Part shown: piece by piece, positions 1 through 57,119 of the stretch
Layout of the letters: the number at the start of each line of letters is the position of its first letter
Numbering within the stretch: position 1 is the first letter of the stretch
Assembly (NCBI RefSeq): GCF_019649055.1
Contig: NW_026570239.1
Coordinates: 868,001-932,000 of the forward strand
Length of the DNA: 64,000 nucleotides
Direction of reading: 5' to 3'
From: Paramacrobiotus metropolitanus
Taxonomy: Eukaryota > Tardigrada > Eutardigrada > Parachela > Macrobiotidae
Program-made: the position numbers and the translations under genes
Notes under the pieces: model-generated
Database searches by the model: none
Told to the model about the DNA's origin: nothing
Seen by the model: only the letters and a program-made list of their open reading frames with translations

Positions 1-504
1 AGCGCGCACCACCCGGTGCCGGCGGCCCAACCGAACCACCATGGCGCTGACGAATTTGGATACTACGCAATCGAAAATCTGTATCTGAACATACGCGTAT
101 CTGTTCCACAGGACGCGGCGCACCAGGAACACCGCGGGATACCACGTCCATGGGCGGTCAGGGTCTATCCGGGCGAGGATCTCAAAGCTGGCCTGGGATG
201 ACGGATAACTCAACTGCCCGTTGTATTCCTCGTCCCAGAAGCAGCCCGTTACGACATGCTCCTGCTGCGAGCTGAGACAGTGCAGCGCCTTTTTGTACTC
301 GACGAACTGCGAGCGCCGGCCAGGTACGCCAAAATCCACGATCACACCGTCAGGGACGGTGTTAATGACCAGACCGCGCTCGAAGAGTCGCTCGTCATTG
401 GGCACATCTACCGCGTTCCACTGATATATGTCGGCGCCAGAATAAATTTCACAGAACAGCGATGAGTCCGAATAACCAAACGATCGTATTCCACTGGTCT
501 CCAT
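1..504 (-). CDS. N-terminal exon of YQWNAVDV/F-box-like family protein (partial, runs off window)
   Basis: Open minus-strand reading frame from ATG at 504 to the window edge, 168 codons without a stop. It begins METSGIRSF, followed by CEIYSGADIYQWNAVDV, then the family block VDFGVPGRRSQFVEY, then RPWTWYPAVFLVRRVLWN. These blocks match the first exons of the genes at 38305-39027, 44842-45562 and 56157-56882, so this is the fifth member of that family. In the complete members this exon is about 241 codons and is spliced to an F-box-like exon, which here would lie beyond position 1. The function is unknown; an SCF-type substrate adaptor is only an inference from the second exon of relatives. The LTR element at 598-5974 is inserted 94 bp upstream of the ATG and may separate the gene from its promoter. 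Confidence 0.8.
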   Translation of the reverse strand, partial: METSGIRSFGYSDSSLFCEIYSGADIYQWNAVDVPNDERLFERGLVINTVPDGVIVDFGVPGRRSQFVEYKKALHCLSSQQEHVVTGCFWDEEYNGQLSYPSSQASFEILARIDPDRPWTWYPAVFLVRRVLWNRYAYVQIQIFDCVVSKFVSAMVVRLGRRHRVVRA

Positions 505-597
505 TGTCGTGTGTGTAAGGTGTGAGAAAAGTATATGGCTTAATTTATTTAACTCGTTAAAAATCAACTCCCGGAAAGTATGTTCCCTATATGGCAT

Positions 598-950
598 TGT
601 TACATGATAAATGTGGCAGAGCTAATTAGAGAACGGGAAAAGGTCACGACCAGACCGGCCGGCAGCGCATGTGAAGTAGCTTTATTAGGAAATTATCGTT
701 AGATGGCAAGTCAGTAAAACAGTAAGAAAAGGAATCAACATACTGGTTAGTACTGCTGCAAAGAAATGTACCATCCGTAGTTCTAATGGTTGTGATGGTT
801 CTGATGGTTGTAATAATAATGGTTGCATTACGGTATAACAGTCATTTAAGTAGGCATAAACAGACACAGTCAGGTTAAAGGCTAGGCATATCAGGGCATA
901 CATCAGGTATTAGTAAGCTATACATTAGGACTTTGAAACATTACGTGACA
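598..950 (-). repeat. 3' LTR of the LTR retrotransposon
   Basis: 353-bp copy starting TGTTACATGA and ending CGTGACA on the plus strand. On the element's own (minus) strand it is the 3' LTR, because the polypurine tract lies at its inner edge (951-961). It contains a GGTTGTGATGGTTCTGATGG low-complexity stretch near 785-825. Confidence 0.87.
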
Positions 951-3778
951 CTTCTCTCCTCAAAAACAGACTGTCCACAGTCATAACACAACATGTATGT
1001 ACAATAAGAGAAAAATATAGTCAGCCAGCCGTGGATGTACTAAATATTTAGATAATTTTAAAAGCAGAAAACGAATGCCCTTTTTTAAAGTTTAAAATAA
1101 ACTGCTTTATTCTCTGATTAGTGCCGTTTGAAATTTACTTAAACGAGATATTAGCTTCCTCATGTTGGACTTTGCTACTTCACAAATTTTCTGTATGAGC
1201 TTTTCAAATGTTAAAATTTTATCTTCTCAGCTAATCAACCGTGTGTAACCGCAATCGTCTCACCGAATTAAGCACGGATAACATTGTACTATAGTGGTTC
1301 GATTAATTAGCAAGTTACTGTAGCAAGTTACTGTAGCAGTCGAAGTTTATTAATGCCTTATGCAACCGGTTTTTGGCACGGGCTATTTTACGCTTTCGTA
1401 GAGCGGCATATGAGCACTTGTTGCACATTCCTTTTCCCCTTTGAGAAAAAGAAAATTAAATTTAAAGGACCAAGAAAATTGGGCACCTAAAAATGCGAAT
1501 CAGCTGTTCTTAATTAAAATTTTTTTTTTTATATTTCGTGATATTTTAGCCACTGGATATCAGCACGACACCTTTTTGAGATTCAACCTTATCTCCAGTT
1601 TTTTTTATTCCGCTGTACAGTCATGTCGCGTTACTTTGAACACAGCACCCGGTTAACCAGTGCTGCGCGCCAAAGCTAAAGTTGTTAACGCGGCGGCTCC
1701 GCTAACATCATCACCCATGACCGACATTATCGTAACTGTGTTTTTTAGGAGATAGGTAATCAGATGCTGCATAAAGTGCGGCTGTATCGTATAGCTGTGA
1801 GTTATCGATCTGATAATCAAACCCTTTTTTTTTAATTAAAAATTCATTAGGCCAACGCGCGTGATGTGACTGCTAGAAATCGTAAAGGGCGGCCACACCA
1901 TAGCTGCATAGAGACCTTTTGTTCGACTGCTAATTTTCAATCATCAATAAAAAAAGAAAGGAAAAACATTTTTTTGTAGCGAAATTATAATTTTTTTATA
2001 GATTTTAGTTAATTAAAAAAATATTATTTGTGACAAAATATTATGTAGTCAGGAAAAAGAAAAGAATTTAATAAATTGTTATTTTTGGAATTTTGCGGAA
2101 AATATTAAACGGATACTTAATGAATATAACTAAATAAAAACAAAAACGAATAAAATTAAATTTTTTTTGAAAATATTTAAACTAATGTACGGCGGCTGAC
2201 TTTACACGAGCTGAAGTTTAACACGGGGAAAATGGTTTCCCTTTATGGAGGAGTTCCCCAATCCAACCAACGTTTATCGGGCTTCATCCAGTCCATGAAT
2301 AGGATACGAACATTACTTGTAAATCTGGACTTCGGACTGATGAATGTTTGAATCGTCGGGCGGGCTTCATTATTTTTTTTTGGAGACTTCTTAAAAACAT
2401 CACGTTTCGCGGAACTCCATTACTAAAAACACACTTAACAAACATACACAAATTGCATACCATAAAACAATAACCGTCAAAGCAATAAATTTATTAAAAT
2501 ATGGTTTGCCCGTTGCCGGATACACAGTTATTAGGAACATCAGAATATCAAAAACGCACTTTTTTTAGCACCAAGATAAGAACTGTTTTTTTGGCTCTAT
2601 CAACCTTACATTAACCAATCCGTGATTACGAAATCATTATCAGTTTTGTGCACCTAAGATACACAGTGTAACAAGTTTATGCGTAGACGCTACTTCCAAT
2701 TTTTCATTGCACAGGGGATTCATCAAGATTCTGCCAACTTTTACTGCGGTCCATGGTATAGCTTTGCCGGACTGAGTATACTCTTTTCAAACAATCAAAC
2801 ATTAACTTGACTCCGAGGCTTCTGCCTTTGATTAAATACAAGAATTCAATATTTTCCCGGCTGGGTCACTACGCTCTCCGGACAAGTCTGTAGTTTTTCC
2901 CTCTAGGTATTACTAAAGTTTTAAAAAGAACGTGCACTTTCCTTTTAAACACTAAGTCAACCTTTTCGTTAACCATGTATTCACATGATTATTTACAGCT
3001 ATACGTCACCCACAGCGCAACGGTCTAAAGCTTTTAATTAATATTTAATTTAAATCAATGTAAATTCTAGTCTGCAGTTCTAGAGTTAACAATGATTTAT
3101 TTTGTTGCATATCAAAAAACGTTAATCCAGACTCGCACTCTGGTAATTTTAGGCTATGCGAATAAAGTATGTACATCGAGCACAACGTTCGTCCAATCTG
3201 TCACCTTGACCTACTTGTTGTGTCTATCCAGTGCCGTCGCTTTGCGGAGTCATTTATTCTCTGGCCAGTTCAACAATAAAAATTTCAAAAACACAAGCAC
3301 GTGCATTTCCTCAAAATAAAAACTTCAAAAACATAAAGTGCGCACGTGTATTTCTTCAAATAATTCATTCGCCATTATGCTTCTTCCTGGATAAATAATT
3401 TTAACTTTTGCAGAATCGTCGCTTTTATCCCTTCCCCTCATTGATAAAAAACTTCATACAGTCATTTTAAAAACCAATTGTACCTTTGGTCGGATGCGTC
3501 GATTATTTGAGCCAAACATTTTATGAAATCAAATGATAAGTAATTAAAAGGTTACAAAGTTAAGTGCTAAAACAAAAGGTTATTTTTTTCACCAAATTTT
3601 AGACGGTCATAATATTCCCACAAAACGATGCACTAAACGCATATCCACAAGCAGTATTAAGGCAGGACATTAATAATTTGAAAACGGAAAAATCACATAA
3701 ACATTTTTTTAGTGTTTCGTAAATAATTCGATACAACTTGGCATATATACAAGCATATATACAACAGCCTCATTAACA
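951..3778. other. AT-rich interior of the LTR element, no pol recognised
   Basis: About 2.8 kb between the Gag-like frame and the 3' LTR where protease, reverse transcriptase, RNase H and integrase would normally lie. It is AT-rich with many homopolymer runs, and no frame above about 75 codons resembles these enzymes on either strand. I read it as non-coding filler of a deletion derivative. Confidence 0.6.
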
Positions 3779-5621: not shown

Positions 5622-5974
5622 TGTTACATGATAAATGTGGCAGAGCTAATTAGAGAACGGGAAAAGGTCACGACCAGACCGGCCGGCAGCGCATGTGAAG
5701 TAGCTTTATTAGGAAATTATCGTTAGATGGCAAGTCAGTAAAACAGTAAGAAAAGGAATCAACATACTGGTTAGTACTGCTGCAAAGAAATGTACCATCC
5801 GTAGTTCTAATGGTTGTGATGGTTCTGATGGTTGTAATAATAATGGTTGCATTACGGTATAACAGTCATTTAAGTAGGCATAAACAGACACAGTCAGGTT
5901 AAAGGCTAGGCATATCAGGGCATACATCAGGTATTAGTAAGCTATACATTAGGACTTTGAAACATTACGTGACA
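5622..5974 (-). repeat. 5' LTR of the LTR retrotransposon
   Basis: Second copy of the 353-bp repeat, matching 598-950 over its whole length as far as I can read. The inner edge carries the candidate primer-binding site at 5605-5618, and the outer edge is followed by GCAT, the second half of the target-site duplication. Confidence 0.87.
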
Positions 5975-5978
5975 GCAT

Positions 5979-8440: not shown

Positions 8441-8455
8441 ATTGGAAGAACTGCA

Positions 8456-9644: not shown

Positions 9645-10188
9645 GTTTGCTTGTACGCTTTTAAGAGATGTCCTAGGCTGGCTGATAAGCTGACAGCTAG
9701 TTTGAATTCAATAAAACAAATTTTTTCCGGAATATGATTAAGGAAATACTTTGTGTCTTTGTGTCTTTGTTCGTGTCTTTGTCATCTAAAAAGTCTTATT
9801 AATCTTGAGTATCAGATGGAGTTTCACAAAACAAATTTTCAAAAAGGGGAGGGAACACAAGTTCCCTTAAACGTTTAGTGAAACGCAAAAGCAGCCATTT
9901 TTAAAAATCCGCTTTCGCGAAGCGAAAGATATTGACGAACTTTCTGGCGGGAAGATACTTGCAAAGCAAAACACATACAAACGACAACTGCGAAATATAA
10001 CAGACTGCACAATGTTAGTGAATACTGCCGGCATTTGGTTAACTATTATTACGCCCATGTCATGAAAGTCATTGCACTATGCAAGCAACAGCAATACGCT
10101 ATGAACAGAATATAATGATAACTGTTAGCATATTTTAACACAGATTTATTAATAACTGTGTGTTATCATGATAACGGTTAACATAACA
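9645..10188. other. Intergenic region between GPCR and kinase-Kelch gene
   Basis: Convergent 3' ends flank this stretch. It contains an AATAAA signal (9709-9714) shortly after the GPCR stop, a short GTGTCTTT microsatellite near 9752-9782, and a small palindrome around 9910-9928. No gene seen. Confidence 0.5.
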
Positions 10189-13100
10189 TTATAATCGGCA
10201 GCAGTTGATATCCACTCTGACGGCGTACGTAACGTTGAGGTTGGGGTCCGTTTCCACATCATCCAAGTCTGGCAGCGGGAAAGCTGACCACTGACAAGTT
10301 GTCGCATATATACTTCCATCTTTTGCGATAGCCCATTCTTTCCAACGATACATCCGCCGAAAACGTAAATTTCATCGCGGTTAACGAAGGCGCAGTGGTT
10401 GGCTCTGGGATGCAGTAGGCTACTCACTTTTTTCCATTTGCGTGTGGTACGCTCGAACCGGAAGCAGGTATGCAGCAATTCAGCGGAAGGATCAGAGCCG
10501 TTCCGACCGCCTAACAAGTATAGTTCTTTTCGGAAAATAACGGCAGCAAAACCAACTCGGTCATCTGGCAGCGATAAAACCGATCCGGACGATTCCCATA
10601 GCTGTTTCTTCGTATCGAAGCGTTCCACCAATCGAGCACCATCACTTAAGGATGTTCCGATGACAACTAGTTTTGTCCCGTTGGAAACTATGCAGTCCAC
10701 TTTCTTAATCCTGAATGCAGTAAATATTTTCTTTTGAAATTTAATGCTTAGCAACAACGAACTTATAAAGTAAAAACCCAAATTACATGATTAAACCAGA
10801 TTCATCTCAAATTATTTTAACTGTAATTACTCTTACCAATGCGGCATGGGAAGCGGGCATACTGAAAAACTGTTCGTGTCAAGCTTCTTGAACGACGTTT
10901 GAAGATCGTTTTCCTCCCAGAAATAAATATTATCGTCAACGGTAACAGCACATTTTCCAATCTTTACCAGTTCTTCTCGGTCGACCTTACGCCAGCTCTG
11001 TTTGGCTATATCGAGTTCGATGGCATGGCTCTCTTTGTTAGTATCATCTTGTGTTTGGCAGATGATATTGTTGCCCAATGTGGCAAAACCATTGCCAAAA
11101 GGTTTGTCTTCCAAATTTCCAGCAAACAACAAAGGCTTAAGAATGCCGGTCAGCGGCTCGAACGATTGCATTAACACCGGCGAAGCTTGACTTTCCTGAT
11201 GGCCGTGAAATATCACGAATAGTTCCTTCGGTACCTTCTTTTCGGCTTCCTCTAGCAAGGTCAGCACTTGATCCGCTGATGGCCTATCCTCGCTCGCCTG
11301 GCTTAAACACTGCCGAATGCAGCTGGAGAGGTAATTTGGTATCAAATCGGAAACAACAGGAACAAAACCGTTCACCAGCTTCTCTTCGAATACATGGTCG
11401 GAGATGCTCCTTCCTGCGATGACCTTTTCGGATCGCTCTAACTCGCTCTTTTCCAACCATTTTTCTTCGTTCTTAAGGACGCAGTCTGCCAGATCCAGAA
11501 TTACGCAGCCTAAGCTCCAGATATCCATTTTTCGTCCGGTATTTATACTTTCGCCATCAATAGTTTCTAGCAAGCCTCTTCGGAATCTTTTGAACATTTC
11601 CGGGGGTAAATAGCGAATCGTTCCATGAAAATGTGGCACATCTTCTAAGCGAGTTACGGTTCCCGTTATCTGCGAATGCTCGTCCAAATCTCCGATGAGC
11701 AGCCTTTTATGGCGATTCCCTTCTTTCACCAGGATGTTTTTCGGTTTAAGATCACCATGAATTATCTTATTTTGGTGCAAAAAAGTTAAGCCTCTGGTAA
11801 CATCCATGGCATATTGGATAGCCGTTGCCAGTGAAATGCTCGATTCCGGAGACGAAGAGCCATTTCTCGATCGATTAATTAGTTTTTCCAGATCGCCTGA
11901 AATTTCATCGATAGGTGAGCAAGCTGAGAGCAAGAACAAAACCTTTTAATCAAATAAAATCAATTATTTGTTTTAAGGCTTAATCGATAGACCGTAATTA
12001 TCATACAGAAGAATAGAAGCGATCCAAGATTTTCTTTAGTACGAAACATGCCATAGCCTACAAGTACATCCTTTATAAATTAGCGAAATTACTTTAAGCA
12101 GCCAAAAATTATTGTACAGTGATATAAATTTCTCTGTTTGTCAAGAACAACAGACCGTCACAATAATCCATCATCAGTTCAATGTAAGGCACTCCATCCG
12201 TCGTTTTGAACACGCTAAACTTATGGTATGCCAGCAGGCTGGGATGGCGAAAATTGACTATTGTCACTAGTCGGTTACGAAGCCTTGGCCAGTTCTGATT
12301 GGAGTCGCTTGACCATTTGTAATGGTTTTGGTTATCTAGGTGTATCACTTTAACGGCCACCATGGAGTTTCCGGAAAAGTTTCCTCGTTTTGTTATCGTT
12401 GCTCTATATACTTGGCCAATGGCACCGAATCCGATACGGTCACGTATTGAATAGCTGAACTCACAGTTGGTACCAAAAGATTCCTCGTTGATAACGGATT
12501 CAGGAATATGTCCGCTTGACTCAGAGCCTGTGGTGACTCTCGGTGAAGCCGGAGCGGCGGTAACACTCAGCGTGCTGGCTTGGCTATACCTTATTAGTTC
12601 AAGAAGCTCGCTTGCAGCTATTCTGTCCTTACTGTCGATGCGTAAACACTGCCTAATCCAGGCAGCTACTTCCGGTGGTATAATCTCATCCACAAACGGG
12701 ATGTAACCATTCCCCATCCGAAGGGCAACCGTATAATCTTCCAGGTCCCGCGTGTTCAGAAAATGTCCGTCCTTCTCAAGTAACCATTGCGATCGGTTGA
12801 CACGGTTAGCTGGGCAAGTTTAAGCAAAATGCACCCCAAACTCCAGATGTCTGTTTTTCTCCCAACATTGCGTGTTTCTAATCCAGCGAACTTAATCATC
12901 TCCGGTGACATGTAGCGAACACTTCCCCGAATGTGACTTAAGTCCCCAGTTACCGTGACTTCGCTTTGAATCTGAACAAAGTCATCGCAGTCCCCAATCA
13001 AAAGTTTTCCTGTGCTGTCGACCAAGATATTTTCTGGCTTTAAATCTCCGTGTATAATTTCCTGCTCGTGTAGATATGTCAAACCATCTGTGATGTCCGC

Positions 13101-13586
13101 AGCATAACAGATGGCTTTTACCGGATGCAGTGGACGGCCGGTTTTTTGGATTCGGTGTAATAATTCTCTCAAACTTCCGTCTAAAAAAAAGATATTACCG
13201 GATAAAAAATTACCAGGCGATAAAATCATTTACACGAAAAAATTATGATAGTTTCTCTAAAGCCTACCAGGAAAATAATCCATAAGCAATTCAATGGCAA
13301 GAGACACATCATCATCGTCCCTGTAAATGGTCACCTTGTGATACCTAACCAGATGGGGATGGCCCAATTCCAGCAATTTTCTCATTCGCGCGACATAGGT
13401 TTGTTCAAGTTTTCGTCGATTTTCGGAATTGAGCTGCAAAACTTTTACTGCCGATTCCGTGTTTCCTTCAAAGTCACCGCGGTCTGTAATCGCCGCTTTG
13501 TATACAATTCCAAAACTTCCCCTTCCGATAAACGATCCGGAGTCATAAACGTAGCTGCAAGAACTACCCAGTGTTTCAATTAACAT
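10189..13586 (-). CDS. Tandem protein kinase - protein kinase - Kelch protein
   Basis: Exons on the minus strand: 13586-13268, 13180-12156, 11896-10837, 10710-10189. Splice phases 1, 1 and 2 agree at each junction and the joined text reads MDYFP-DGSLREL, DYCDG-DLEKL and PMPHW-IKKV. Kinase 1: glycine loop GRGSFG, VAIK-like lysine in SAVKVL, catalytic loop HGDLKPEN, then GDCDD where DFG is expected, SPE, and DIWSLGC. Kinase 2: GFGAIG, AVKVIH, HGDLKPKN, GDLDE in place of DFG, PPE, DIWSLGC. The single exon 13180-12156 holds the end of kinase 1 and the start of kinase 2; the exon 11896-10837 holds the rest of kinase 2 and the first Kelch-like blade. The last exon has Kelch signatures LYLLGG and IYVFGG. 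Two apparent frameshifts (about 12785 and about 10305) mean this copy may be a young pseudogene or hold sequence errors. Substrates are unknown. Confidence 0.8.
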
Positions 13587-13639
13587 GATAAATTTAATTT
13601 ATTAAGATAGTTGATTATAAACGAAAAACATTCGAATTC

Positions 13640-16530: not shown

Positions 16531-18283
16531 CGTGCTTAGTTGCAGTTAATTTTAGCGTTAACGGCGTAAAAAACATTGAAGTCTGGATCCATATCAAAGT
16601 CGCATAAGTCAGGCAGTGGGAAGGTCGTCCATTTAAAATCCCTCGAATCGTACACTTCCATCGTTTGCGACAAGCAATCTGTATCACAGATGCGCCCACC
16701 GAATATGAATATTTGGCCGTCATAAACAAACGCATAGCTGATGGGCCTGGCCTGAAGAAGGTCACCCACTTTTTCTCAGTTGCGTTTATTAAGGTCAGAT
16801 CGGAAACATGTTTTCAACGCTGAAGCCGAGGGATCAGAGCTGCTTTGACCACCTAAAAGATGCAGTTCGTTGCTGAAGAAGAGGGCAACAAACCCAATAC
16901 GGTCATCTGGAAGTTGTAGCACTGATTCCGCTGGTTCCCACTGCATTGTTGCCGCATCAAAGAGCTCTAACACTCGAACAACCGTCTTCGGTGAGGTTCC
17001 AATGACGACAATTTTTTCATATTGCAAACAATGCAGTCCGCCGTTTTAAACCTGAATGCAGATAGAAATTGTATTGCCCAAATTGTCATTCAATAAGACA
17101 ATCATAAGTCGTTTCGGCTCATCTCAATATGCTTCGAGAACTCTTACCAAAGCGGCATAGGAAGCAGGGATAGAGAAAAACTGGTGTTGTCGAACATTTT
17201 AAAGGGAGCTTGTAGGTTGTGTTCGTACCAAAAGTAGACATGATCGCCAGCGGTAACAGCAAATTTTCCAAACAGCCCCAGTTGCTCCGCCCTTCCGATA
17301 GAATGCAAGCTCTCTTTGGCTACATCTAGGACGACTGTGTGATGCTCCTTGCTTGATTGATCGTATATCTGGCACACAATATTATTGTCCAGCTGGATGA
17401 AACCATGGTAGAAATACTTGTGTTCCAAAACTCTCGCATAACAACGGTTGAAATGCTCCAGTCAGCGGCTCAGACGACTGCATTAGGACTTTCGAAAACT
17501 GACTTTTCTGATGGCTCTTTATTATGACAACCAGTTCCTTATCAGCTTCCTCTAAATGCAACAGCAACTGTTTCGCCAAAGGTCGCTGTTCGCTATCTGG
17601 AGACAAGCACCGTCGAATGCAGCTCGTAAGATATCCTGGAATCAAACCGGAAACGAATGGAACAAAACCGTCCAACCGTTTCAACATGTATTCGACTCTC
17701 GTCATGCTACTTCCTGCCAGGATTTTCTCGTACTGCCCTGAGTCGCTTTTTTCCAACCATTTCTCATCATTTTTAAGAACAGAACCTCCCAGCTCCAGAA
17801 TTACGCAACCCAGGCTCCAAATGTCGGCTTTCCGTCCCGAAACTGCAATGTTGTCCTGTGAATGTATTACTAATCTTTTAAGCATTTCCAGAGGTTGATA
17901 ATGAATTGTTCCATGGAAGCTTGTGATTTCATCAAAGGACGTGTCGGTTCCAATTACTGGCTCATCCAGATCGGCGATAAGCAGCATCTTGTGGCGGCTT
18001 GCTACCCAGTAGTGCTTTCACCAGAATATTTGAGGGTTTAAGGTCACCGTGGATGATTTTGTTGTGGTGCAAAAAGCTTGCGCCTCTAGTGATATCCGAT
18101 GCGTAGCGAATAGCTGTGGAAAAGTGAAGGCATGGCTCCGAAGAGGAAGTGTCGCTTCTTGATCGTTGGAACAGCTCATGCAAATTGCCTTAAACATTAA
18201 ATATTTTTCGAGGATTAGACAGAAATCAAAAACCTAATCTTTTCCAACTGCTTGAACGCTACTAGGAAATTGCGCGACAAATC

Positions 18284-32880: not shown

Positions 32881-35221
32881 TTTCTTGCTCAACGGAGATG
32901 TTGGAAATATTCCCCGGTCCCGTTATATACCAGTGGAACGCTGTGGATGTTCCGGACTCCGACGGACTACTGCAGTACGGGAAGGCAGTCGACGCCCCGG
33001 AAGACGGGCACGTGGTGGACTTTGACTGTCCGGGCCAACGCTCCCAGTTAGTGAAGCCCGGTACAGCACGGGCATGCCGCAGTTCTCCAAGAAAGCTTAG
33101 GGCCTTTTTTACCTCAAACGATGGCATTTGCGAGGATAAACGAAATCTCCAGACACCGCTGCAAGTTCTGGCGCGGACCGCTGCCGACCGCCAATGGACC
33201 TGGTATTCCGCAATAGGTCTCCTGCGGCGACTAATGTGGAGCCGCTGTATATTTATTCGCATTCTGATTGGCCACAAGACCTTCGACAAAGCCGTTAGCA
33301 CCAAAGTAGTTCGGCTCGAGCATTGTCAACGAAGTGTCTGGGATGACGATGGTCCTGTACGCTTCTGGGTGCGATCATGTTAACTGCCGTTCTTGTACTA
33401 CGCGGGAGGCACCACTGAGCCGGCTATCTGGTCTTTGTGGACCAAGGAGCTTATGTTCCATAGAACGTACCCTCTGCGTGTGGAAAATGGACAACTCTTG
33501 TATTTGACGAGTGACAGCGAGGCGGATGGCTCAACCTTAACCGCTCACTTGGTAAATCCCTTAACTGTTCTTCTTTATCTCTCAGCAATTTTGAAATTGG
33601 AAATAATTATAGCACAACTAAAAAAATGCGCATTGGCATGCACTGGTAGACTGGAGCGCTGCTAAAACGTATTTGGCAAAAATTGCGTTAATATCTACTG
33701 TCACTTCCGTAACGAACTTCCGTAACCGTAACGGGCCAGACACATTGTTGTATTTGTGCTGAATTTAGATTTTAGAGGACTTCCGCTAGGCTCCGGTCGA
33801 TACAGTAACTAAACTACGTAGGTGAAAAACTTTATTTATAACTGAAAGGGAAATCTTTTTAGTATAATATTTACTTAAATTTCACCATCAGTCAAGGCAG
33901 TTTCGTTACTTCTAAAATAAATTTAAATTTACTTCAGATAATTTATATTTAAATAACTTTTACCGCAAATAACTAAGTTGAGCCAGTTACTACTTTTTAA
34001 ATAATTTCATTCTTAAATAAAATTGTAATCAACTTAAGTTAATTTACATTTAAAAAACTTTTGCCGTAAGGTTACTTTATTAATTTTTAATATAGTTATT
34101 TGTGTGTTTAGTTATATGCAATGCATCGCATGCATACTTTAGGAGCACTGGGCATCAAAAGATGAGCATTTAAAAAAGGGTGGACTTTATTCGACGGGTG
34201 TTTGGAATCCCTTCCAGAGAAAGCGCTAGTTTGTTCTCTCCCACCAGAAATACTCTGTATTACAGATCTATCAGCCTTATCCCTGCATATCCTTGACTGC
34301 GTCTTCACCGCACTTGGCACGATCGAATATGCAAGAATGCGCCGAGTTTCCCTATTGTTGAACGCGTTGATCAGTTGGTCGGAGGATTCTACCACCATAT
34401 GGGTGACCTTTGAAAACTCTCAGAACCCCGCCCTTGCAATCGGGTCAAGGATAGTACAGCGTATGAGTGCACCACCCCGGCGCGTTATCGTTGCTTGTGC
34501 CACACAGGAACCCAGCGACTCTGTTTCCACTTTACCCGATTGTCTGTTGCTCCTGGCGGCGGCGCACGCCCAGCTCCCGCTACGGCCGAAGAAGAAGCTG
34601 CAGATATACTGGAGCCAATGTCGGTGACTCGGTGGAATCTGGGAGGCCCTGAGACGCTCCACAAAGAAGTGCTGAGAATGGCCGATGTGCTCCGGCAGTG
34701 TGCCGCCGCTGCGACGAGCGTTGTATTGCGAAACTGCCGGTTGGTTGGACTGCGTCGACATGTCGGCCAACAGATGGTCGTCTACGACAAGATCGGGCTG
34801 AACGAGGATTGCGCGCGGATGGTGACGGTTTTGTATGCGCTCATAGAAAGGCAACTGCAGCCCCGGGAGGACTGTCTGCCGGCTGCGGCAAAATGGATTA
34901 CTGAATGCGCCGACGCTGGTATTAACTTATCAAGTTTCGTCGCTACTCGTGTTGATAAGGTAAAAATAGTGAAAAGGCCAAAAAATAACTTCAGATTATT
35001 GTATTCCGTATCCGTCGGACCATTCGACTACAGATAGCGAGTCCAAAATTTATTCGGGAAGCGGGCGTTCAGTTGGCATATTACAATCAAACTCTTCTAC
35101 TTAGGTTTTGTTGGTGTACGAGAAAGACCGGACCGATTCTCCGCATCATGCAAAATGTCAATGGACGCCGCAAGAGCTGCGCTGTCTCGACCCGCAATCG
35201 TTGAGCACCATCACATTGTGA
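32880..35221 (+). pseudogene. YQWNAVDV/F-box-like family member, plus strand, degenerate
   Basis: All four family exons are traceable in order. Exon A 32898-33551 has VIYQWNAVDVPDSDGLL, QVLARTAADRQWTWY and EPAIWSLW, ending at a conserved phase-0 donor CACTTG|GTAAAT. It carries an in-frame TAA at 33381-33383, in the position where relatives read CAL. The F-box-like part at about 34202-34627 retains SLPPEIL but lacks the usual N-terminal piece and has diverged strongly. The third exon (frame of 34618-35000) keeps VLRNCRLVGL and LYALIERQL. The fourth starts after TACTTAG at about 35105 and keeps WTPQELRCLDPQSLSTITL before a stop at 35219-35221. It is the only member on the plus strand, head-to-head in orientation with none and tail-to-tail with the intact copy. 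Confidence 0.75.
33780..34110 (+). repeat. AT-rich diverged direct repeat inside the pseudogene intron
   Basis: Two related blocks (about 33890-33980 and 33990-34080) share TTTACxT..AATTTA.ATTTAAA.AACTTTT.CCG. They lie between the first and second exons of the degenerate family copy. Confidence 0.4.
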
Positions 35222-36177: not shown

Positions 36178-39027
36178 TCAAACGGTATTTTGTGCGTGAG
36201 CTTGTTGCTGATCCCGCTGTGCGCGCGACAACATGGCGAAATTCAATACCCACAAGGTCAGAGGGGACAGTGTCGTCAGATCCAGTCGGCGCAGATCGTC
36301 CCCACTCCAGCAATGCTTCCACTGGTAGCGGTTTGTCAGACGAGGGTCCCCGCACTGATATTGCGTCAAAATCTGGATAAGGTATTCAAAAAACACGAAA
36401 TAAAAGCGACTAATTTATGAGCAATCTTACTATTCTAATGGTGGCGCAGCTTTCCGATGCTTCGTTAGCCCACGCTTCCTGCGCCACCCACCGCGCTATC
36501 TCGCCGACATCCAGCGGAATCCACTGATCCATCCACAATAGATGCCGCTCCAGCAGCGCATACAGCCCCGTCTCCATCTGCAACACCGTATTGCGGATGA
36601 CGGTGAATTCACTGGGAATAGTGATGACGTTCTCTTGGCGGCCAATACCGCAGAAGCGGCAGTTGCGCCATACGATCCATTCCACGGATGATGCCGCATC
36701 GGCACACTCCTTAGCCAGCAGCTGCACCTCCGCCGAGAGAAGATTCTGGCTGAAATCCCAGCGGCACCGGTTGAATGTCACCTGTCGAATAACCGGTCGC
36801 TTGAATATTTATTACTTCTTTAAGATAAATGGTAAGCCAAATAATTCGACGAAAAAATTCGTGCCGGCTTGCGCTGTGAGAAGTGAGGGTAATCTTCAGA
36901 CAGCGAAAAATACTACCCTAGTAATAATTATTGTAATATGAGTACGCATTTTTTCCCACACCACATTTTCCCGTTACCACAATTTTCCCTTTTACCATAT
37001 ATCTATCGCAGGCTTTGCATTGCGCGAAGGAATGTTTTCGCGGATATACGCGAAACTGCAATAAGAAACTCTCTCTCTCTGTATAAAGCTTCACCTTCAA
37101 CTTTTTCTTGCGGTTACCGCGCTGCTTATAAATGGCGCTGACCAAGCGCAAGCAGTCGCTGATTCCCTGGAGCTGCCAGTTCTGGAAGGCGTTGGTTATG
37201 ACGACCGTCTCCGTGGCAGCGGTTAAACACTGGACGATGCACATACCCACGGAGTACAGATAGGTTGCATTGCCGGCGGCGTCAAAGTTGAGCGCCAGGC
37301 GGCGGCTGGTGTCATCCTGCTTCATAACCGCATCCCACAGGGGGCTGACACGGCGGTAGAACCAACGTTCATTTGTCCCGCACCAGGACAGGATCCCACG
37401 CAAGATTTCCGGTGGAAGTTTGGCGGCTATTTGACAGGATACCTGTTCCGGTGCATTCCGCAAAAGAAAACAAACGTCGGGTTGGATTTTGGACGGTATC
37501 CAGTGCCCATTGGCGTAAGTCCAGTCGGTCTGCATGCGCCATGCCATTTCCGCTTTGGCCTTTTCATTCAGCTGCTCCTGTTTAAGCGCAATCACAATAA
37601 TTGTCACAAATTCACATAAAAGGTTGCTGTGCCAAGTTCAGGCAGTTGCGTAAAATAAATTACAAAATATTCCCGTTCGCGATTTAATTATTAGTTTTCA
37701 CTTTTCCAGTACCAGTTTCTCTTGCCAATCCAACAATGTCAAAACTGTAATCGCTGGACATGGGAGATCATAAGGGACAGGCAGATCATAAGGGGCGATA
37801 CCACCCTACCGCGCTAATCACCACCACCCCAGACGGTCCTTTTCGTCCCCAGATAGGGGACGAAAAGGTAGGGAAGGAGCTTTGGAAAACATGCTAACAT
37901 CTCATAATGGTTTTCAAGGTCCTCCGATTTTTAAATTTCGGTCGAAGGAATAAGATTGTTTCTTGCTAGGCTTTGTGATTTTTGTACAAAAAATTTGATT
38001 CTCTCTGTACATCCGCTTTTTGCATAGAAATAAAATTACCAAAGTTTGCACAGTACCAGAAATGCAGTCTGTATCATGCTAAAATTAAGCAGAAATAAAA
38101 GACTTCATTGGTAGAAACAAAAGAATTTTTGTAACTGCCAGAACTTGTCGTATCAAGGCTGTACATGGCCGGATATTGTTATATAAGTTTCAATTTTTTC
38201 AAAAACGACTTGTGCGGATAAATACTATTTTGAAATTGATTTGATTCACAATTCTTACGGTTATACCAAACGCTATTGCTTCAAACTTTGTTTAAAAACC
38301 ATACCAAATCATCGTCCGATAGCGGTGATAGTATGGCGGGCTTACTCCGATCCTGGAGATACAGCAGGCTTTCGTTCAACACGCACATGGGTAGCGCCGT
38401 GCAGGCCGGCACCGACATCAACCCTTCCACCCACAAACTCCACAACGCTGGCTCCAACGGTCCCCCTGTGCGATACTCCCACGGCAGGGCACACGCCCTT
38501 ACCACGTACTCCTCCTCCTTAACAGGCCGAAACTCCCCTTTACGACGCACCAAACGGACCGCGTGCGCGCTGGCAAACTTAATCACAGAGCTCTCACCCA
38601 GCTGGATTCGGATATATGCGTATTCATTCCACAACACCCGGCGTACTAGGAAAACCGCCGGGTGCCACGTCCACGGGCGATCGGCGGCCGTCCGCACCAG
38701 CACTTCAAATTCTGGCGGGATCGCAGGATTGGTCAGGGCCCCTTTGTACTCTGTGTCCCAGTCATTCAAAGGAGCAAATTTTAATTGCCGAGAACTGAGA
38801 CAGTGCAGCGCGTTGCTGTATTCGACAAACTGCGAGCGGCGGCCGGGGACGCCGAAATCAACGAGCAGTCCGCCGTGGACGGTGTTGATCACCATACCGC
38901 GCTCGTATAGTCCGCCGACATTCTTCAAATCCACTGCGTTCCATTGGTAAACGTTAGCGTCGGGGAAAATCTCACAGCAACGTGAAAAGTCAGAAAAAAC
39001 AGATGATGTGATACCGTTGCCGTTCAT
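36178..39027 (-). CDS. Intact YQWNAVDV module + F-box-like + LRR-like protein (four exons)
   Basis: Exons 39027-38305, 37577-37095, 36781-36431 and 36372-36178, all joined in phase 0 by GT-AG introns (donors GTATGG, GTGAAG, GTAAGA), give a 583-aa protein without a break. Residues about 1-241: YQWNAVDL, VDFGVPGRRSQFVEY, DRPWTWHPAVFLVRR, EPALWSLW; the repeated W-x-PA-V and VDFG patterns hint at a Tudor/Agenet-like fold, by eye only. Residues about 242-402: KLPPEILRGIL...FYRRVSPLWDAVM, an F-box-like motif expected to bind Skp1. The rest: IVWRNCRFCGI, LYALLERHL, LRRLDLTTLSPLTL, LRR-like strands that could bind a target. A role as SCF ubiquitin-ligase adaptor is inferred, not shown. It is the only fully intact member seen here and the best reference for the family. 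Confidence 0.82.
37610..38280 (-). other. First intron of the intact family gene
   Basis: Lies between exons 1 and 2 of the gene at 36178-39027 (full intron 37578-38304, 727 bp). It holds AT-rich sequence and a GGGACGAAAAGG / CCTTTTCGTCCCC inverted pair near 37838-37868. No embedded gene seen. Confidence 0.6.
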
Positions 39028-40420: not shown

Positions 40421-41590
40421 ACAACGATCATACAAAATGATCAGCGAGAGTCCACTGTACTGGCGACCGTATGGTGAAGCCAAGCATGAGCACCCACAAC
40501 GTCAATGTGGACAAGGTCATCAGATCTAAGCGACACAGTTCCTCTCCCGTCCAGCTGGACTTTCCACGATAGCGGTTTGTCCGCCGTGGATCTGCGCACT
40601 GGTTGGTCAGCAAGATCTGGAAGAATATTTAACATCAGAAGCAATGATTTTCAGATCCGCATACTAGCGGTATTTTTAAAAAAATGACGCCACCCACCCG
40701 TCGAATATTGCCGCAATTGACTTGCGTTTCGTTCACAATCCATCGCATCAACCCGAATGCATCCAGCGGGAGCCAATGCTCTTCCCATCGCAAACTCCGT
40801 TCCAGCAGTGCATACAACTCCGTCTGCATCTCCAGAAGCATGCCGGAGAGGGCGGTGACGTCGCGCAGCACAATGAATTCCGTATGCTCGGCGCCGATAC
40901 CGCGAAAGCGGCAGTTGCGCCAGACAATGCGTTCCACGACGGCGGCTGCTCCGATACACGCCGTAGCCAGCAGCTGCACCTCCGCAGGGAGACGGTGATT
41001 ACCCAAGTCCCAGCGACAGCGGCTTACAACCACCTGCCACAAAATGTGGAGAATTAAAGGTGGCGAGCATTTTAAATCGCAGCGCATTTACCTGCAATTT
41101 GTTCCGACGGTTGCCGCGCTGCTCGTGCACAGCACTGATAAGACGTAGGCAGTCGCTAAGTTCTTGCAATGAACAACGCTGGCTGGCGTTGTTAATGACA
41201 ACCATCTCCGTGGTGACGGTAAGATAATGGATAATGGCCATGCCTACTGAACAAGCGATCGTGCCGGCGTTGTTGAAGGTGAGCATCAGGCGTTTGCTTG
41301 GATGGCCCTTTTGCATGACCGCATCCCACAGCGGGCTGACACGGCGGTAGAACGACCGCTCATTCGTACCGCAACAGAACAAAATCTCCCTCAGAATCTC
41401 CAGTGGTAATTGTGCGGCAGTTTGGCGAGATCGCTGTGCTGATGTAACATTAAAAGTTGATTGGATTATGGGCGGTGTCCACTGGCCGTCGATGAAGGCC
41501 CAACCGGTCAGCGCGCGCGGTGCCATAGAAGCTTCGGACATTTCATTCAGGTGCTCCTATTTAGTTTTTAAAAAATAAATAACACGCGGT

Positions 41591-42937
41591 TGTCATCGGC
41601 AGAAAGGTTTACGGGTTAATGGTTTACGATCAAAGAAGCCACATAAACCTTTCTGCCGAACTGCATAAACCTTTCTGCCGGAGCCGTAAACCTTTCTGCC
41701 TGCGGCACCTTTGAAGCTTGAACTTTCTGCCGGATGCGTAAAACTGTTAATTGGCAGCGTAAACCTTTCTGCTGGGCATTTATTTTCATTTTATGATTCT
41801 ATCAAGCACGTTATTATGTGCATTCAGGCACATCAACCTTCCGGTTAGCCATCAAACATACGCAGTTTTATATTAAGACATTTTTGAAGCAGTGTTTAAG
41901 CTTGGCTGTTTTTAAGGGAAATGCTCCTGCCTCGTTAGAAACAGAATATGCGTCCTTAAAACGCCGGACTACGCTAACAATTTCAGCAGTTTTCTTAAGT
42001 GAAAATATGAACCATTTTAAGACGTGTATGCACTTTTTTAATTAAAGGCTCTCACCAATAGAACCAAGTGATTTTTCATCAAGCGATCAAAGTTTTAATG
42101 CGGCGAGCTACTGCCCGGTTTCCGCCTATAATAGCCATACATCATTTCAATACGTGTGTTAAGGAATGTTCGCCGGGCCAACTTTCAACCCTTCTGTGCA
42201 AATAAACAGAACACTGAAACAGCAACAACGTGAGTACGGAATGCATACGGCATTTCCCTTTCCAGTGAGGCCGCCTTTTTTGTCGTTGCACACCTCTTTA
42301 TGACTGCTTGCGAGCCTTAATGCGCACAATAACGTCTTTGTAACATCACAGAATGGAAACAATGGCCCCTTAGAAAGGTTTACGCAGTTTGACGGAAAGA
42401 TTCGCATCAAAGATGCCGCCGGCAGAAAGGTTTACGGCTCCGAAAGAAAGGTTAATGCTTCAAAGGTGCCGCCTGCAGAGAGGTTTACGGATCCGGTAAA
42501 AAGGTTTCCGCTGTCAATGAAAAAGGTTTACGTATCAATGAAAAAGGTTTACGTGTCAATGAAAAAGGTTTACGTATAAATGAAAAAGGTTTTCTTAGCA
42601 TAAACCTTTCTGCCGCACCATGTGCCGGCATACTGTACTTAACCAACAGACTTAGGCAGTTTCGCTTTGTAGTGGGCGAATTTTTTAGAATGTTTTTTTC
42701 CAATCCAATCTGACTGGTAAAATTTACTACTTTTCAAGAACGATCTAGTTCTGCCACTGGTTGGATACGCACAATGGCTCCGAATGGCCATAGTGGTGTC
42801 GTTGTCTTTTCAATGGATGCCGCCAGCAGTCCGGCAGAAAGGCTTACGCATCCGGCAGAAAGGTTATCCTTCCGGCAGAAAGGTTTACGTGGCGCCTTTA
42901 ATCGTAAACCATTAACCCATAAACCTTTCTGCCGATG
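41591..42937. mobile_element. Fold-back element with CGGCAGAAAGGTTTACG repeats, 9-bp flanking duplication
   Basis: The ends are inverted copies: left CATCGGCAGAAAGGTTTACG with GGTTAATGGTTTACGAT, right ATCGTAAACCATTAACCCAT with CCTTTCTGCCGATG. The 9-mer ACACGCGGT lies directly outside both ends (41582-41590 and 42938-42946). About fourteen copies of the motif CGGCAGAAAGGTTTACG or its complement are scattered within, plus a 20-bp tandem TCAATGAAAAAGGTTTACGT at 42513-42590. A 9-bp duplication suggests Mutator-like transposition. No transposase is visible. It lies in the first intron of family member 2. Confidence 0.8.
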
Positions 42938-44835: not shown

Positions 44836-45779
44836 CCTTACCAGCTCCGCATCCGATAGTGGATTCCGCTTCGCTGGCCTCCACCTATCACGGAAGTGGA
44901 GGTACTGCAGGCGGTTGTTCACAACACAGATGGGATACGCCGGATGGACGAGCACCTTCATCATCCACTCCTCCCACAGACTCCACAACGCCGGCTCCAC
45001 CGGCCGCCCCCTCCGATATTCCCGTGGCAGGGCGCAGGTCTCCGTGAAATAATCCTCCTGCCTGACAAATCGCACCCTCCAATCCCGGAGCGCAGGACGA
45101 ACCGCGAGGGCGCTGGCGTATTTGACCACGTAGCTATCTCCCAACTGGATCCGTATGAAGACATATTTACCAGCAACACCGCCGGGTACCACGTCCACGG
45201 GCGATAGGCGGCCGTCCGCGCGAGGACCTCGAAACGGGCCTCCGGCATAGAATTATTTAACGCTGCGCTGTGATCTGCGCCCCAGTCGTGGAATGGAGCG
45301 ATACGGCATTGCCGGTAGCTGAGGCAGTGCCTCGCCTTTTTTAGATCGACATACTGCCAACGTTGGCCCGGCACGCCGAAATCCACGATAAGGTCCCCGC
45401 CCCGCCGTGGTGGGCGGTGTTGATGACCAGACCGCGTTCGAGATGTCCGTTGGCATTTTGTACATCCACTGCGTTCCACTGGTAGACGTCGGTGCCTGGA
45501 TAAACCTCACAGGGTGGCGCTGAGCCCGCACAATCAAACGATTGGATTCCGTTGGTGTACATCGTCCTGGTACTTGCCAAAAGGAGATCGACTTGATTGC
45601 AGTCGCTGCAATCACGAAACGGAAAGTGACAACTGCGCTTTCCATTCGTTGTTCCATGGCAAGTTGGCAACTTTGACGGAATCCAAGGGGAAACACCAAA
45701 CACTGTTAATCGCTCTCAGCTTATATCGATATTATACTCTTGATGCTGCGGTGCCATGAGACACATAGCCCAAAGCGTT

Positions 45780-46640: not shown

Positions 46641-46654
46641 ACTGACATCAGACA

Positions 46655-47697: not shown

Positions 47698-47969
47698 CTA
47701 GAAAACAGCGAACTGATTTACAGCAAAGCCTCAGTAATGTGAGTTCGGCGACGCACCAGCAAATGTTGCGCCCGAGAGCAGAACGATGGCGAACAGACAG
47801 GGTCGGGAAGACTTATACATGCTGCCTAGAGTGTGCTAGTCGTGGTGTCTCCAGCGCGCTGGTGGCGGGTATTGCGGACAAAATTGCCGAATGCCACTGG
47901 CTGCTTCTGAAACGCTTTCTTACACTCTGTATGTTATCCGCGTTGGAACATCCAATGAGAGTCTGAGAC

Positions 47970-49130: not shown

Positions 49131-49131
49131 T

Positions 49132-52620: not shown

Positions 52621-52739
52621 TGGAGTACAATTACTTGCAGCCGGATAAACAGACGTAAGAACACCGACAACTGTCAAAAACACCGCAGAAGGGGAGGTAT
52701 TCCTCGTCCGTTGCCGAATCGTTATGAGTAATCCCAGAT

Positions 52740-53800
52740 TTTCCTTGCCTTTGAGAACGTGGATCGTGCCTATACGATAGAGATATTTCTTCGAGGATTA
52801 ATATACAAAATTTGGGTCGACAATCGTGGATATTCTGGGCTACACAATATTCCGATAAAAACCTTCACACTGGCAAGGGTAGGAATATGGAGCAGTTCCT
52901 CTGAGTAGCGCCGTTGCGAATCTCTAAATTCTAATCTAATAAAAGCTGGTCGTTAAGCGACTTACGTCAGTGATGTTGCCCGCAGTCCAGGTTTCCCGTT
53001 AATCATCAATAAATCTCCTCTGGTTTGGGTGCAGCTCACGCTGCTCTCCACTTATTAATACATGTTGTTGAATCCTACGGTACATTCAATACGGTATTTA
53101 TTGTGAATACAATACTCTGCACGCGCGGCTGCGTGGGAGAAAACACAACGGAAAGCGAGAATGCCATACAGCAACTCCTTTCTACCTAAATGGCAAAATG
53201 CAGAGAAGAAATCAATACACATCTGCGCAAATCGCGATCACGCGGTGATCGCCGTAAATATCGATAGCTGAATGGGTCTTATCCCGTGCGACTTGCTGGA
53301 TGACGGGAGATGTTTGCGTGAGCGGGACAGTGCATCCGTGTACAACAGGAGAGTTATGCACAATACACAGCCGCAGCTAGTGTAATCGTAACGCAGTACC
53401 TTAAGCCGATCGGTTCACCGAAAGAAGGAAATGAATGTTAAATCTCGCACACATGATACAGCGGCTTTTGATCCCTTCGTCCAGATCTATATATGGCACG
53501 ATGTTATTGTGAACAGTTTGAATTTTAAAGCGAGCACATAGACGTATATTATTAATTTCTTGCAACAGTTTAACCATATGACACAGGGTAATTCTCGGAT
53601 CTTTTTCGAAATAAATTACAGTTCATAACCTATACGCGCATTGGTTGCGATGCCGGCTGCTGCAGCAAATCGTGCTAATTGAGAAGCCGTCCTTCCGTGT
53701 TTGGAACACCATACAAGGCAATCCCACACGACGCTTTCATTTTTTCCAGCGAGCAAGTTAGATAAGTTCTAAAGCAGCGAAGTTCAAAATTTGCCCTGGT
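52740..53800. other. Intergenic, nothing recognised
   Basis: AT-rich spacer upstream of the membrane-protein gene. No open frame of note. Confidence 0.4.
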
Positions 53801-53810
53801 TTCCATATGG

Positions 53811-54090
53811 TCAGTCTGTCTGACCACCGAGAAAAAATATGGGTATTTCGTTGTGCAGAAAGATTTGGAGTAGCACGGACTTATCGTGCGCTAGGTTGTG
53901 GAAACAATCCACACTGAAAACAATGGGTGTTTCGGTTATTTTGTTATGACTGACAACGGCAGGCATCATAGAGTTAGTTGCCATCGGCGCCTTTTTCTTC
54001 CGCTTCTGTCTAGTGCCGCCTGAGCTTGGGAAAGTTACGGAATCACGCAAACGACTGGCGCCATACGACGATAAAATCCGAACTGAAGAC
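53811..54090 (-). pseudogene. LRRCT-end relic related to the gene at 46655-47697
   Basis: The minus strand reads FRNFPKL in one frame and TPIVFSVDCFHNLAHDKS in another; these match FRNFLKHK and WPLIFSVDCSRDLTYDN of the LRR gene. DNA-level similarity is visible around AACAATCCACACTGAA and CGTACGACGA / CATACGACGATA. A TGA follows the SFA before FRNF, and the frame changes between the blocks. Only the last exon is recognisable. Confidence 0.6.
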
Positions 54091-54099
54091 GTAAATCAT

Positions 54100-54840
54100 C
54101 AAGGCCATCCAATGTATAATAACCGTCATAAGCCCCGACCACCAGTACAGCCAATAAACTCAAAGCAGTTTAACAGAAATCACAAGTCTGTACTAAATCC
54201 GATGCCGTTGACGTGTAAGAAATTACTCCGCCATCTATTTCTGAAAAGTAATGTACTGTGGAGAAAAAGATCTGGTCAGATAGTTATAAACGGCCAGCTC
54301 CAAAACTAGTAAAAAAACCATTCAGTCATCACGTCATATGGCGTTCGTGCAAAACATACCTCGTTCCCCAACGCTTTTGCTTGTACAGTCATTTGGTTCT
54401 GTAATTTAAATTTGGTTTTCGCTGAAACTACTTTACAGCCCCGTAATGACTAATTTTAACAAGGCCCGGCTGCAAAGTTCGAATAACGTTAGCATCTACG
54501 TTATTTTATTAATAATAATAATATTAGTGTTCAAAGTTGTAAACTGTGAGCCAGTTTGCACTTGAAGATCTATGCTTTTCATTTCATTGAACGCGTCGAT
54601 AACGCTACCAACATCAGCATCATAATAACCATTAATACCAGTGCCACCATTGCATTACTACATAATACCGTACATACTACCACCACCACTATCCATCACT
54701 TGTACATGTTGCCCGCAGTAGTGGCAGGGCACGCGGTACAGCATTACCTACACCTAAAATGCACAGCAACTTTATTAACATAAATTATAACAACATTCAA
54801 AAGTAAGTTCATTAATCCACACAACCAGCTCGCGAGAGAA
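54100..54840. other. Spacer downstream of family member 3
   Basis: AT-rich; includes a CAT/CCA-rich low-complexity run at about 54598-54705. The fourth family exon expected here is not found. Confidence 0.4.
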
Positions 54841-54847
54841 GAACCAT

Positions 54848-56882
54848 TCATCCATTCAAGCACATTGCCGTTGGCATAGCAATCATAGTGCCGCGGACGA
54901 TCGTCATATCGCTCAGCACAGTGTTCTCGGTATGTTCACCGCCGCTACCGGCAAAGCTGCAGTTGCGCCAGAAGATGCGCTCAACGGCGACCGCCGCGTT
55001 GGCACACGTGTTGGTCAGCAGGCCCAGCACCTCCCCCTCCGAGACCAGGTATTTATTACTCACTTTCCAGTTACAGCAGTAGACCATCACCTGCGCAAGA
55101 AAACAGAGTTCCACGCAAAGGAACAGTGTGCAGATTAATATTTCCCTATAATCGTAAAAGATTCGTGCAAATTACCGTCCGCCATGCTGTCATTATCTGG
55201 CCGTTTAATATAGCGCTGGTCTACTTCAAACTTCACCGCGTTCAATGAATCATCCTATTGTTATTTTCTTCTTTCATCTAATTCATTATATAAACATAAG
55301 TTACCGGGAAATACTGTAGCCGCCTGCACACGTTGCATCGCTATCAGATCCGGCCGTTGCCTTTTCCCTGCTGGGCATTGCACACGCTGTGTTAAACAGC
55401 GAGCAAGGTGAGTGCAGATATCGTGCATTTCAATCTGTGGTGCAACTTGTGCGGGCGGCTACAGTAAAAATATTATAACTAGTTCGTAATTCTCCGGAAA
55501 AATCGAAGTCTAAGTTTAGTGGCGCAAACCTGCAACCTTCGCGGGCGGTAGCCGAGCTGTTGGTATAAGGCGCTGATGAGGCACAGGCAGTCGCTGAGGT
55601 CATTTAGCGTCCTGCGCTGTTCGGTGCAAGTAATAACGACCATCTCCGTGGCGGCAGTTAAACAGTGGACGATGCATATGCCCACGGAGCGGAGTACCGG
55701 GCCGCGGTTGCCGAAGTTGAGCGTTAGGTATTGGCTACTCTCTTCATGTTGAATAATCGCGTTCCACAGCGGACTGACACGGCGGTAGACGGAGCGCTCG
55801 TTTGTGCAGAAACAGGTGAGAATCTCGCGCCACAATTCCGGTACAAGCGCGGCTCGCCTTTGATTGAACGGTGGTACCGGTGCAGCATACCGAGCAACGC
55901 CATTTCCGTACTGGATTTTGGGCGGGATCCACTGGTCTTCGCTGTAAATCCAGCCAGCTTTCAAACGCCGTGCCATCTTCCCTTTGGCCAATCCATTTAT
56001 TCGCTTCTGTTAGATTACAACACAATCAATTTTTTAAACCAACCGAATTTCTTTCCTATGGTCTGCTACGTACGACTTACATCTTCACTTAGAGGAAGAC
56101 AAATGCAGTTAGGTAATAACATTAAATTAAAGATAATAAAAAATTAATGACCATACCAAATCTTTTTTTTGTACTGGTGTCAGTGACAGATCCTGAAGAT
56201 ACAGCATGCTCTTATATACCACACAAAGGGGATGCCCGGTGTCGACCTGCTTCGACATCGTTTCCTGCCACAAACACCACAACGCCGGCTCAATCGGAAG
56301 TCCCGTCGCATACTCAGGCGGCAGGGTGCACGCCCGCACAACATAATCCACCGGCCCGACAGCGCGACTCACCCCGTCCCGGCACGTCCACCGAACAACC
56401 TCGGCACTGACAAACTTTTCCACGAAGTGAGGACCTAATTGGATCTGAACGTAGGCATATTTATTCCATAAGACCCGGGGCGCCAGAAACACCGCCGGAT
56501 ACCAGGTCCACGGGTGGTCGGTTGCCGTCCGCGCCAGAACCTGAAAGTCTCCCAGAGACATGGACTGGCTCAGCGCTCCGCCGTATTCAGTGTCCCAATA
56601 GGCAAACGGGGCGTAGCGCTTGTTCCGGGAACTGCGACAGTGAAGCGCTTTTTTATGCTCGACAAACTGCGAGCGACGACCAGGTACGCCGAAATCCACC
56701 AGCAAGTCACGGTGATCCATATCGATGACCAGACCGCGCTCGAGAAGTCCGTCGGTATTCTCCACGTCCACTGCGTTCCATCGGTAGATATCGCTGCTAC
56801 TGCCAGGATAAATCTGACAAGGAGGCGACGCGTTCGAACCATCGGACGATCTGGATCCTTTGGTAGTCGTTGTCAAATCCAT
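54848..56882 (-). CDS. Family member 3: YQWNAVDV + F-box-like protein, C-terminally truncated
   Basis: Exons 56882-56157, 56006-55530 and 55090-54848, joined in phase 0 (donors GTATGG and GTTTGC; acceptors CTAACAG and TTGCGCAG). Start MDLTTTTKGS, then DIYRWNAVDVENTDGLLERG, VDFGVPGRRSQFVEH, HPWTWYPAVFLAPRVLWN, EPALWCLW; second exon ALVPELWREIL, VYRRVSPLWNAII; third IFWRNCSFAGS. It then stops at 54848-54850 soon after MIAMPTAMC, where relatives continue LYALLER and a fourth exon with LDL(T/M)TL. About 110 residues of the LRR-like end are therefore missing. The first two modules are fully open, so a shorter protein may still be made. In the F-box-like motif LPPEIL has become VPELW. Confidence 0.7.
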
Positions 56883-57119
56883 GGCCAACAAATTTTGGTC
56901 TACAGTGATACACACCAAACGTACGTTGCGAGTTGCAACCTTGCCACCGGGAGAAAGTAATAAAATCGTTCTGCGCAGTGTGTATCCAGAAATAATTTTG
57001 CCTACCGTAGACAAAACAGTATTTTGCGATTACTTTATTCTGCCGTTGCGTGACAGCTTAGCAAAAGTACTGTCTAGCTATACTCAGGCTGATACACTCA
57101 TCGCGAGAGGAACATAAGA

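Follow-up and report, generated by a model that had tools for sequence, protein, structure and literature searches.

Tandem Tudor domains of the FXR type are, to our knowledge, otherwise known only in the Fragile X proteins (FMRP, FXR1 and FXR2). We analysed a window of 64,000 nucleotides from the tardigrade Paramacrobiotus metropolitanus (contig NW_026570239.1, positions 868,001 to 932,000 of the forward strand; GC content 44.0%), which carries several copies of a gene that appears, judging from its sequence, to join this paired Fragile X domain to an F-box. The second Tudor domain of the FXR proteins is reported to bind trimethyl-lysine peptides weakly, with a dissociation constant of about 0.4-0.7 mM (PMC2970552). 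Multiplied F-box proteins have been described in nematodes, where the F-box A2 proteins of Caenorhabditis are reported to have captured a transposase helix-turn-helix (HTH) domain (PMC12062965), and the KSS antidotes of C. tropicalis are reported to be fast-evolving F-box proteins with clustered relatives (PMC12680543).

The tardigrade family resembles FMRP, FXR1 and FXR2 in that its module would likewise consist of two Tudors, arranged in the same sequence, with colinear profile homology, and it differs from them in a longer insert between the two Tudors, the lack of a KH match, the joined F-box and its far diverged sequence. With the Caenorhabditis F-box families it shares multiplied F-box proteins with a captured domain, whereas the domain in front of the F-box would be an FXR-type tandem Tudor and not the transposon HTH of F-box A2 (PMC12062965). 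The KSS antidotes are likewise fast-evolving and clustered, but no Tudor module is mentioned for them in the portion of the source at hand (PMC12680543). By profile, the nearest F-box structures are those of FBXL proteins and the KDM2A/B F-box, but unlike FBXL the family has no match to a leucine-rich repeat (LRR) model. A literature search, which covered titles and abstract openings and left subscription papers and preprints mostly outside its scope, found no description of such a Tudor-F-box family.

A preliminary description of the window had proposed that five loci share an N-terminal exon of no assignable family, followed, in the four that extend far enough, at the same phase-0 junctions by F-box-like and LRR-like exons, and that the exons form one protein. 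A six-frame self-comparison of the window recovered all five places with related first exons, here called copies A to E, and the longer first-exon copies are 38-59% identical in pairwise protein comparison. Each exon is open when read singly. Copy C (36178-39027) is the only one of the five with a complete open model, in which four phase-0 exons with GT..AG at all three introns give a protein of 583 amino acids; copies A, B, D and E are broken, truncated or cut off. The features are as follows.

1-504, minus strand: copy A exon 1, cut at the window edge; open frame that continues as locus L018.
32898-33550, plus strand: copy B exon 1 region with an in-frame TAA; candidate pseudogene.
34199-34603, plus strand: copy B putative F-box-like stretch, with a very weak PF00646 match (E 0.71, ORF 34166-34624); tentative borders.
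34626-34959, plus strand: copy B putative exon-3-like stretch (ORF 34414-35034 resembles copy D exon 3); tentative borders and frame.
36178-36372, minus strand: copy C exon 4, up to TGA; AG acceptor and stop; resembles copy D exon 4.
36431-36781, minus strand: copy C exon 3, C-terminal region with no domain assignment; AG/GT borders, phase 0; 60 genome-wide matches.
37095-37577, minus strand: copy C exon 2, predicted F-box; acceptor AG 17 codons before DWTY; PF00646 E 0.027 (below cut-off), family profile leads to F-box structures.
38305-39027, minus strand: copy C exon 1, putative tandem Tudor module of the FXR type (residues ~27-160) and tail; open frame, donor GTATGG; family-profile homology to FXR Tudors.
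40428-40616, minus strand: copy D exon 4, up to the stop; borders read in the sequence.
40698-41033, minus strand: copy D exon 3; borders read in the sequence.
41092-41556, minus strand: copy D exon 2, predicted F-box (PF00646 E 0.032 on ORF 41002-41556).
44842-45562, minus strand: copy D exon 1, in three reading frames; from reading only.
54848-55090, minus strand: copy E exon 3 with an early stop; from sequence reading.
55530-56006, minus strand: copy E exon 2, predicted F-box (PF00646 E 0.0017 on ORF 55482-56009).
56157-56882, minus strand: copy E exon 1, putative tandem Tudor module, open; 58% identity to copy C.

The proposed common junctions hold for copies D and E, whose phase-0 borders of exons 2 and 3 lie at the same places as in copy C, with the exon-2 acceptor exactly 17 codons upstream of a [GD]W motif in all three. 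In copy E the exon-2 donor GTTTGC is weak, exon 3 ends prematurely and no exon 4 was identified, while exon 1 of copy D is scattered across three reading frames when read as is, with no mending. Copy B has an in-frame stop (TAA) in exon 1 and tentative borders downstream, and is likely a pseudogene. Past the window edge, copy A runs on into an F-box exon and part of an exon 3. Interspersed repeats with a GGCAGAAAGGTTTA-like unit lie at 41600-42900, within the long first intron of copy D.

The exon-1 module can be assigned to a family after all: profiles built from its copies place it, as a divergent member, with the tandem Tudor (Agenet) pairs of FMRP/FXR type. Profile A1, of 31 rows chosen solely by similarity to copy C, placed FXR1 and FMRP tandem-Tudor chains as the top five of its 8 matches in the Protein Data Bank (PDB; E 0.013-0.053). 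With profile A3, of 27 more diverse members, six FXR1, FXR2 and FMRP tandem-Tudor chains headed 11 matches (E 5.3e-6 to 4.9e-4) in alignments spanning both Tudors, and the next match was uL24m (E 0.061). Weak Agenet and Tudor_FRX1 matches in the genome include the family members L046, L048, L052 and L053, and as these four rows of A3 had been picked by such searches, the PDB search was repeated with the remaining 23 rows (profile A6). The same six FXR chains remained first among 10 matches, with weaker E-values than in A3 (2.4e-4 to 6e-3).

The genome's own FMR1 (locus L041, found with PF18336), which matches FMRP structures at E 5e-26, was aligned with A1 by hhalign over 132 columns (probability 96.8, E 3e-10), and the profile homology is colinear to just beyond Tudor 2. 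Against A1 the FMR1 Tudor region scored 64.7; none of its 100 shuffled versions exceeded 19.9, and FMR1 residues 151-350 reached 11.0. In a control set of 56 other open reading frames (ORFs) from loci L042-L057, fetched for Tudor or Agenet hits, the scores were 125-221 for family members, 31-57 for other Tudor-like ORFs and no higher than 23.4 for the remainder. One tryptophan is nearly invariant in the second repeat of the module. The joined copy C protein has no KH match up to E 10, and we therefore do not class the family as FXR proteins. A reading of the last ~70 residues of exon 1 as a remnant of the FMR1 KH0 domain was unsupported, the hhalign alignment ending at FMR1 residue 138.

Several results weigh against these domain assignments. 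Copies A, C and E have no Pfam Tudor match (PF18336 or PF05641) up to E 10, and a PDB search with the single copy-C module gave no match. The gap in the A6 search is small, from 0.006 for the weakest FXR chain to 0.021 for uL24m. At the family level, PF18336 and PF05641 matched one of the 31 members each (best E 0.18 and 0.034, respectively), and three and two of the 27 diverse members (best E 0.001 and 0.00062, respectively); four of these 27 were pre-picked as above. Structure prediction, which the preliminary description had proposed along with the profile search, placed the strands of exon 1 in two groups, but the AlphaFold model from four window sequences was poor (predicted local distance difference test, pLDDT, 41.1); as the model of the F-box and C-terminal part from three window sequences was also poor (pLDDT 40.5), neither fold is confirmed by structure. 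On the F-box side, the PF00646 matches of the window copies are all sub-threshold, with E-values of 0.0017-0.032 for copies C, D and E and 0.71 for copy B.

At the family level, the second part of the proteins nevertheless reads as the F-box that had been proposed for exon 2. PF00646 matched 24 of 25 family ORFs at E<=1 (best 7.8e-9; nine of the 25 had been pre-picked by an F-box hit), and all 13 PDB matches of the F-box profile lay over one short F-box stretch. Among 20 dispersed module loci, extracted mainly on the downstream side, 17 had a same-strand ORF matching the F-box exon of copy C (E<=1e-3); an F-box was seen by eye in L034 and none was seen in L036 and L039. In nine of these 17 loci an exon-3 match (E<=0.01) lay within the F-box ORF, with weaker matches in four more; the split between exons 2 and 3 belongs to the C19 clade. 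The LRR-like reading of the later exons finds no support in the sequences, since none of 25 family members matched an LRR model at E<=1; for exon 3, it was rejected on the sequence comparisons, the PDB profile matches being confined to the F-box stretch. None of the nematode C-terminal domain models matched among the 25 members either.

Three side observations concern Tudor-like genes elsewhere in the genome. The FMR1 orthologue (L041, C5:3433812) is a single ORF of 610 amino acids with Tudor, KH and RGG regions (the last two seen by eye), apparently intronless there. A second Tudor/Agenet-like family (L044, L045, L049, L051 and L055; motif YGNTVLV..WWLGYVQDI) has long ORFs that the module profile matches weakly, and its nearby F-box ORF matches are weak except for one in L049 (E 7.5e-5). 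Two short ORFs of 98 and 94 amino acids (L042 and L043; C106:65813 and C209:97496) exceed the Pfam Tudor_FRX1 cut-off and end early in the second Tudor, and the stretches fetched around them yielded no F-box ORF.

Conserved borders, fused frames and correlated divergence support the proposal that a single protein is encoded by these exons. By our reading of the alignments, about 40 of 50 copies have a phase-0 donor where the aligned exon 1 ends (18 of 20, 14 of 20 and 8 of 10; L048 and L065 are uncertain). In 13 of 13 ORFs selected by the GW-motif pattern, the motif is preceded by an AG at a distance of exactly 17 codons. In L053 and L062 the module and the F-box lie in a single uninterrupted ORF, the match in L062 lacking the first Tudor. 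Exon-1 and exon-2 distances are correlated over 34 loci (r 0.90, 0 of 2000 permutations), as well as within 18 loci of L001-L020 (r 0.38, 3 of 2000) and within 16 dispersed loci (r 0.62, 0 of 2000).

The alternative, in which module and F-box belong to two separate genes lying side by side, draws on the open frame of each single exon and on the length of a few introns, as in copy D. Among the matches listed, 88 of 145 module places have an F-box place within 3.5 kb downstream on the same strand, compared with 12 upstream on the same strand, and 2 downstream and 4 upstream on the opposite strand; outside C19 the corresponding numbers are 54, 7, 0 and 3 of 105. This strand bias, together with the conserved borders, the two single-ORF fusions and the co-divergence, argues against separate genes, whereas the 57 of 145 module places with no F-box place downstream among the matches listed speak for them and against a single protein, as does the fact that among those matches a module lies upstream of only 14 of 150 F-box matches. 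When 12 F-box matches were sampled at roughly even steps, with one beside a known module skipped, and searched with the profile, which is more sensitive than the listed matches, a module was found upstream on the same strand in 10 of 12. No upstream module was found in L061 or in L058, the latter resembling a classical F-box protein; L059 has a partial module at a distance of about 2.4 kb. Considering both sides, we regard separate genes as very improbable, and the sequences point to the module and the F-box being parts of one protein.

What had been described as a cluster local to the window proved to be genome-wide. In the 169,799,020 bases of the 533 contigs searched, exon 1 of copy C has at least 156 matches at E<=0.01 (best 150 of 742 first-look candidates scored), which excludes chance for the module. 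Merging 145 of these matches gave at least 144 separate places on 43 contigs, and 40 of the 145 are on contig C19. PF00646 has at least 150 matches, all over the cut-off (best 150 of 1080 candidates scored), and exon 3 of copy C has 60. All these family counts are minimum values, and a first-look candidate cannot be equated with a gene. The genes of the module-F-box family have multiplied to very large numbers, with decay of some copies. Peptide-pattern scans of viral contigs and of one genome per prokaryote species, which reach close relatives only, found none.

Within L001-L020, the median pairwise ratio of nonsynonymous to synonymous substitution (dN/dS, NG86 method) was 0.31 for exon 1 (dS below 1.5 in 190 of 190 pairs), 0.37 for exon 2 (152 of 153) and 0.33 for exon 3 (14 of 15). 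Medians around 0.3 indicate constraint on the protein sequence of the family. Birth-and-death evolution, as in the F-box repertoires of nematodes and plants, is consistent with the tandem clusters, the broken copies, the clade-specific divergence and the purifying selection seen overall. We consider it probable that the window carries a portion of a very large tandem-Tudor-F-box family whose members are substrate receptors of Skp1-Cul1-F-box (SCF) ubiquitin ligases under this mode of evolution, and such a receptor is most likely the role of the family as read from its domains. The F-box would dock on Skp1-Cul1, and the client, selected by the Tudor pair, the C-terminal region or both, would be ubiquitinated and then degraded. 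Skp1 (PF01466) has four matches in the genome beside this very large F-box repertoire; thus the adaptor is present with no visible expansion. This number counts against the SCF reading when compared with the roughly 20 reported for nematodes (PMC12680543).

Considering the weak trimethyl-lysine binding of the FXR Tudor 2, the module may plausibly read a client or an address. If the Tudor pair kept methyl-lysine binding, the family could be housekeeping readers that tune the turnover of methylated proteins or ribonucleoprotein components, a reading that accords with the peptide binding reported for FXR Tudors (PMC2970552) and with the nearly invariant tryptophan; a large and diverging family is unlike housekeeping, however, and we find this rather doubtful. 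As for what drives the expansion, we conjecture a changing set of clients, such as intracellular parasites or selfish elements, with defence as the likeliest driver. Intracellular defence, in which parasite or viral proteins would be recognised and delivered for proteasomal degradation, a role also proposed for nematode SCF ligases, agrees with the family size, the clustering and the broken copies, and SCF components are reported to act in nematode defence (PMC4063957). A median dN/dS near 0.3 speaks against it, and we hold it as a reasonable but tentative possibility. FMRP relatives function in germ cells, which lends something to a role in the germline or against selfish elements, with family members as antidotes or suppressors that degrade early-embryo proteins like the KSS antidotes; since a genome-wide expansion exceeds the need of such elements, we consider this role quite unlikely.

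Several further features of the window lie apart from the family. Tandem-duplicated protein kinase genes occupy 10152-11945, 12112-13598 and 16539-18189 on the minus strand. In the ORF at 10836-11945 the kinase domain is followed by propeller-like sequence (seen by eye), with a Kelch ORF 45 bases further, and 16539-17045 resembles that Kelch ORF, an arrangement that suggests a kinase-Kelch fusion. The ORF at 19729-20319 matches 13260-13598 and matched no Pfam model. The segments 647-909 and 5671-5933, about 5 kb apart, have identical ORF translations in three frames, which points to a recent duplication. A large minisatellite with a unit of 74 bases, about 48 copies and 97% match lies at 58427-61985, with a second short block at 62382-62767. 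An Rfam search of the window gave no match.

As the window copies have no Pfam Tudor match and only sub-threshold F-box matches, such a family may go unnoticed. If our reading is true, the FXR-type Tudor has been reused as the front of a very large F-box family, an unexpected domain capture, and the family would be a candidate counterpart in tardigrades to the F-box arsenals of nematodes and plants. It would also supply many natural variants from which the binding range of the FMRP Tudors may be learned. Speculatively, hundreds of SCF receptors may form a tardigrade recognition repertoire, in which a captured FMR1 tandem Tudor, freed from RNA binding, would serve as a variable client-binder with an innate-immune-like or anti-selfish function.
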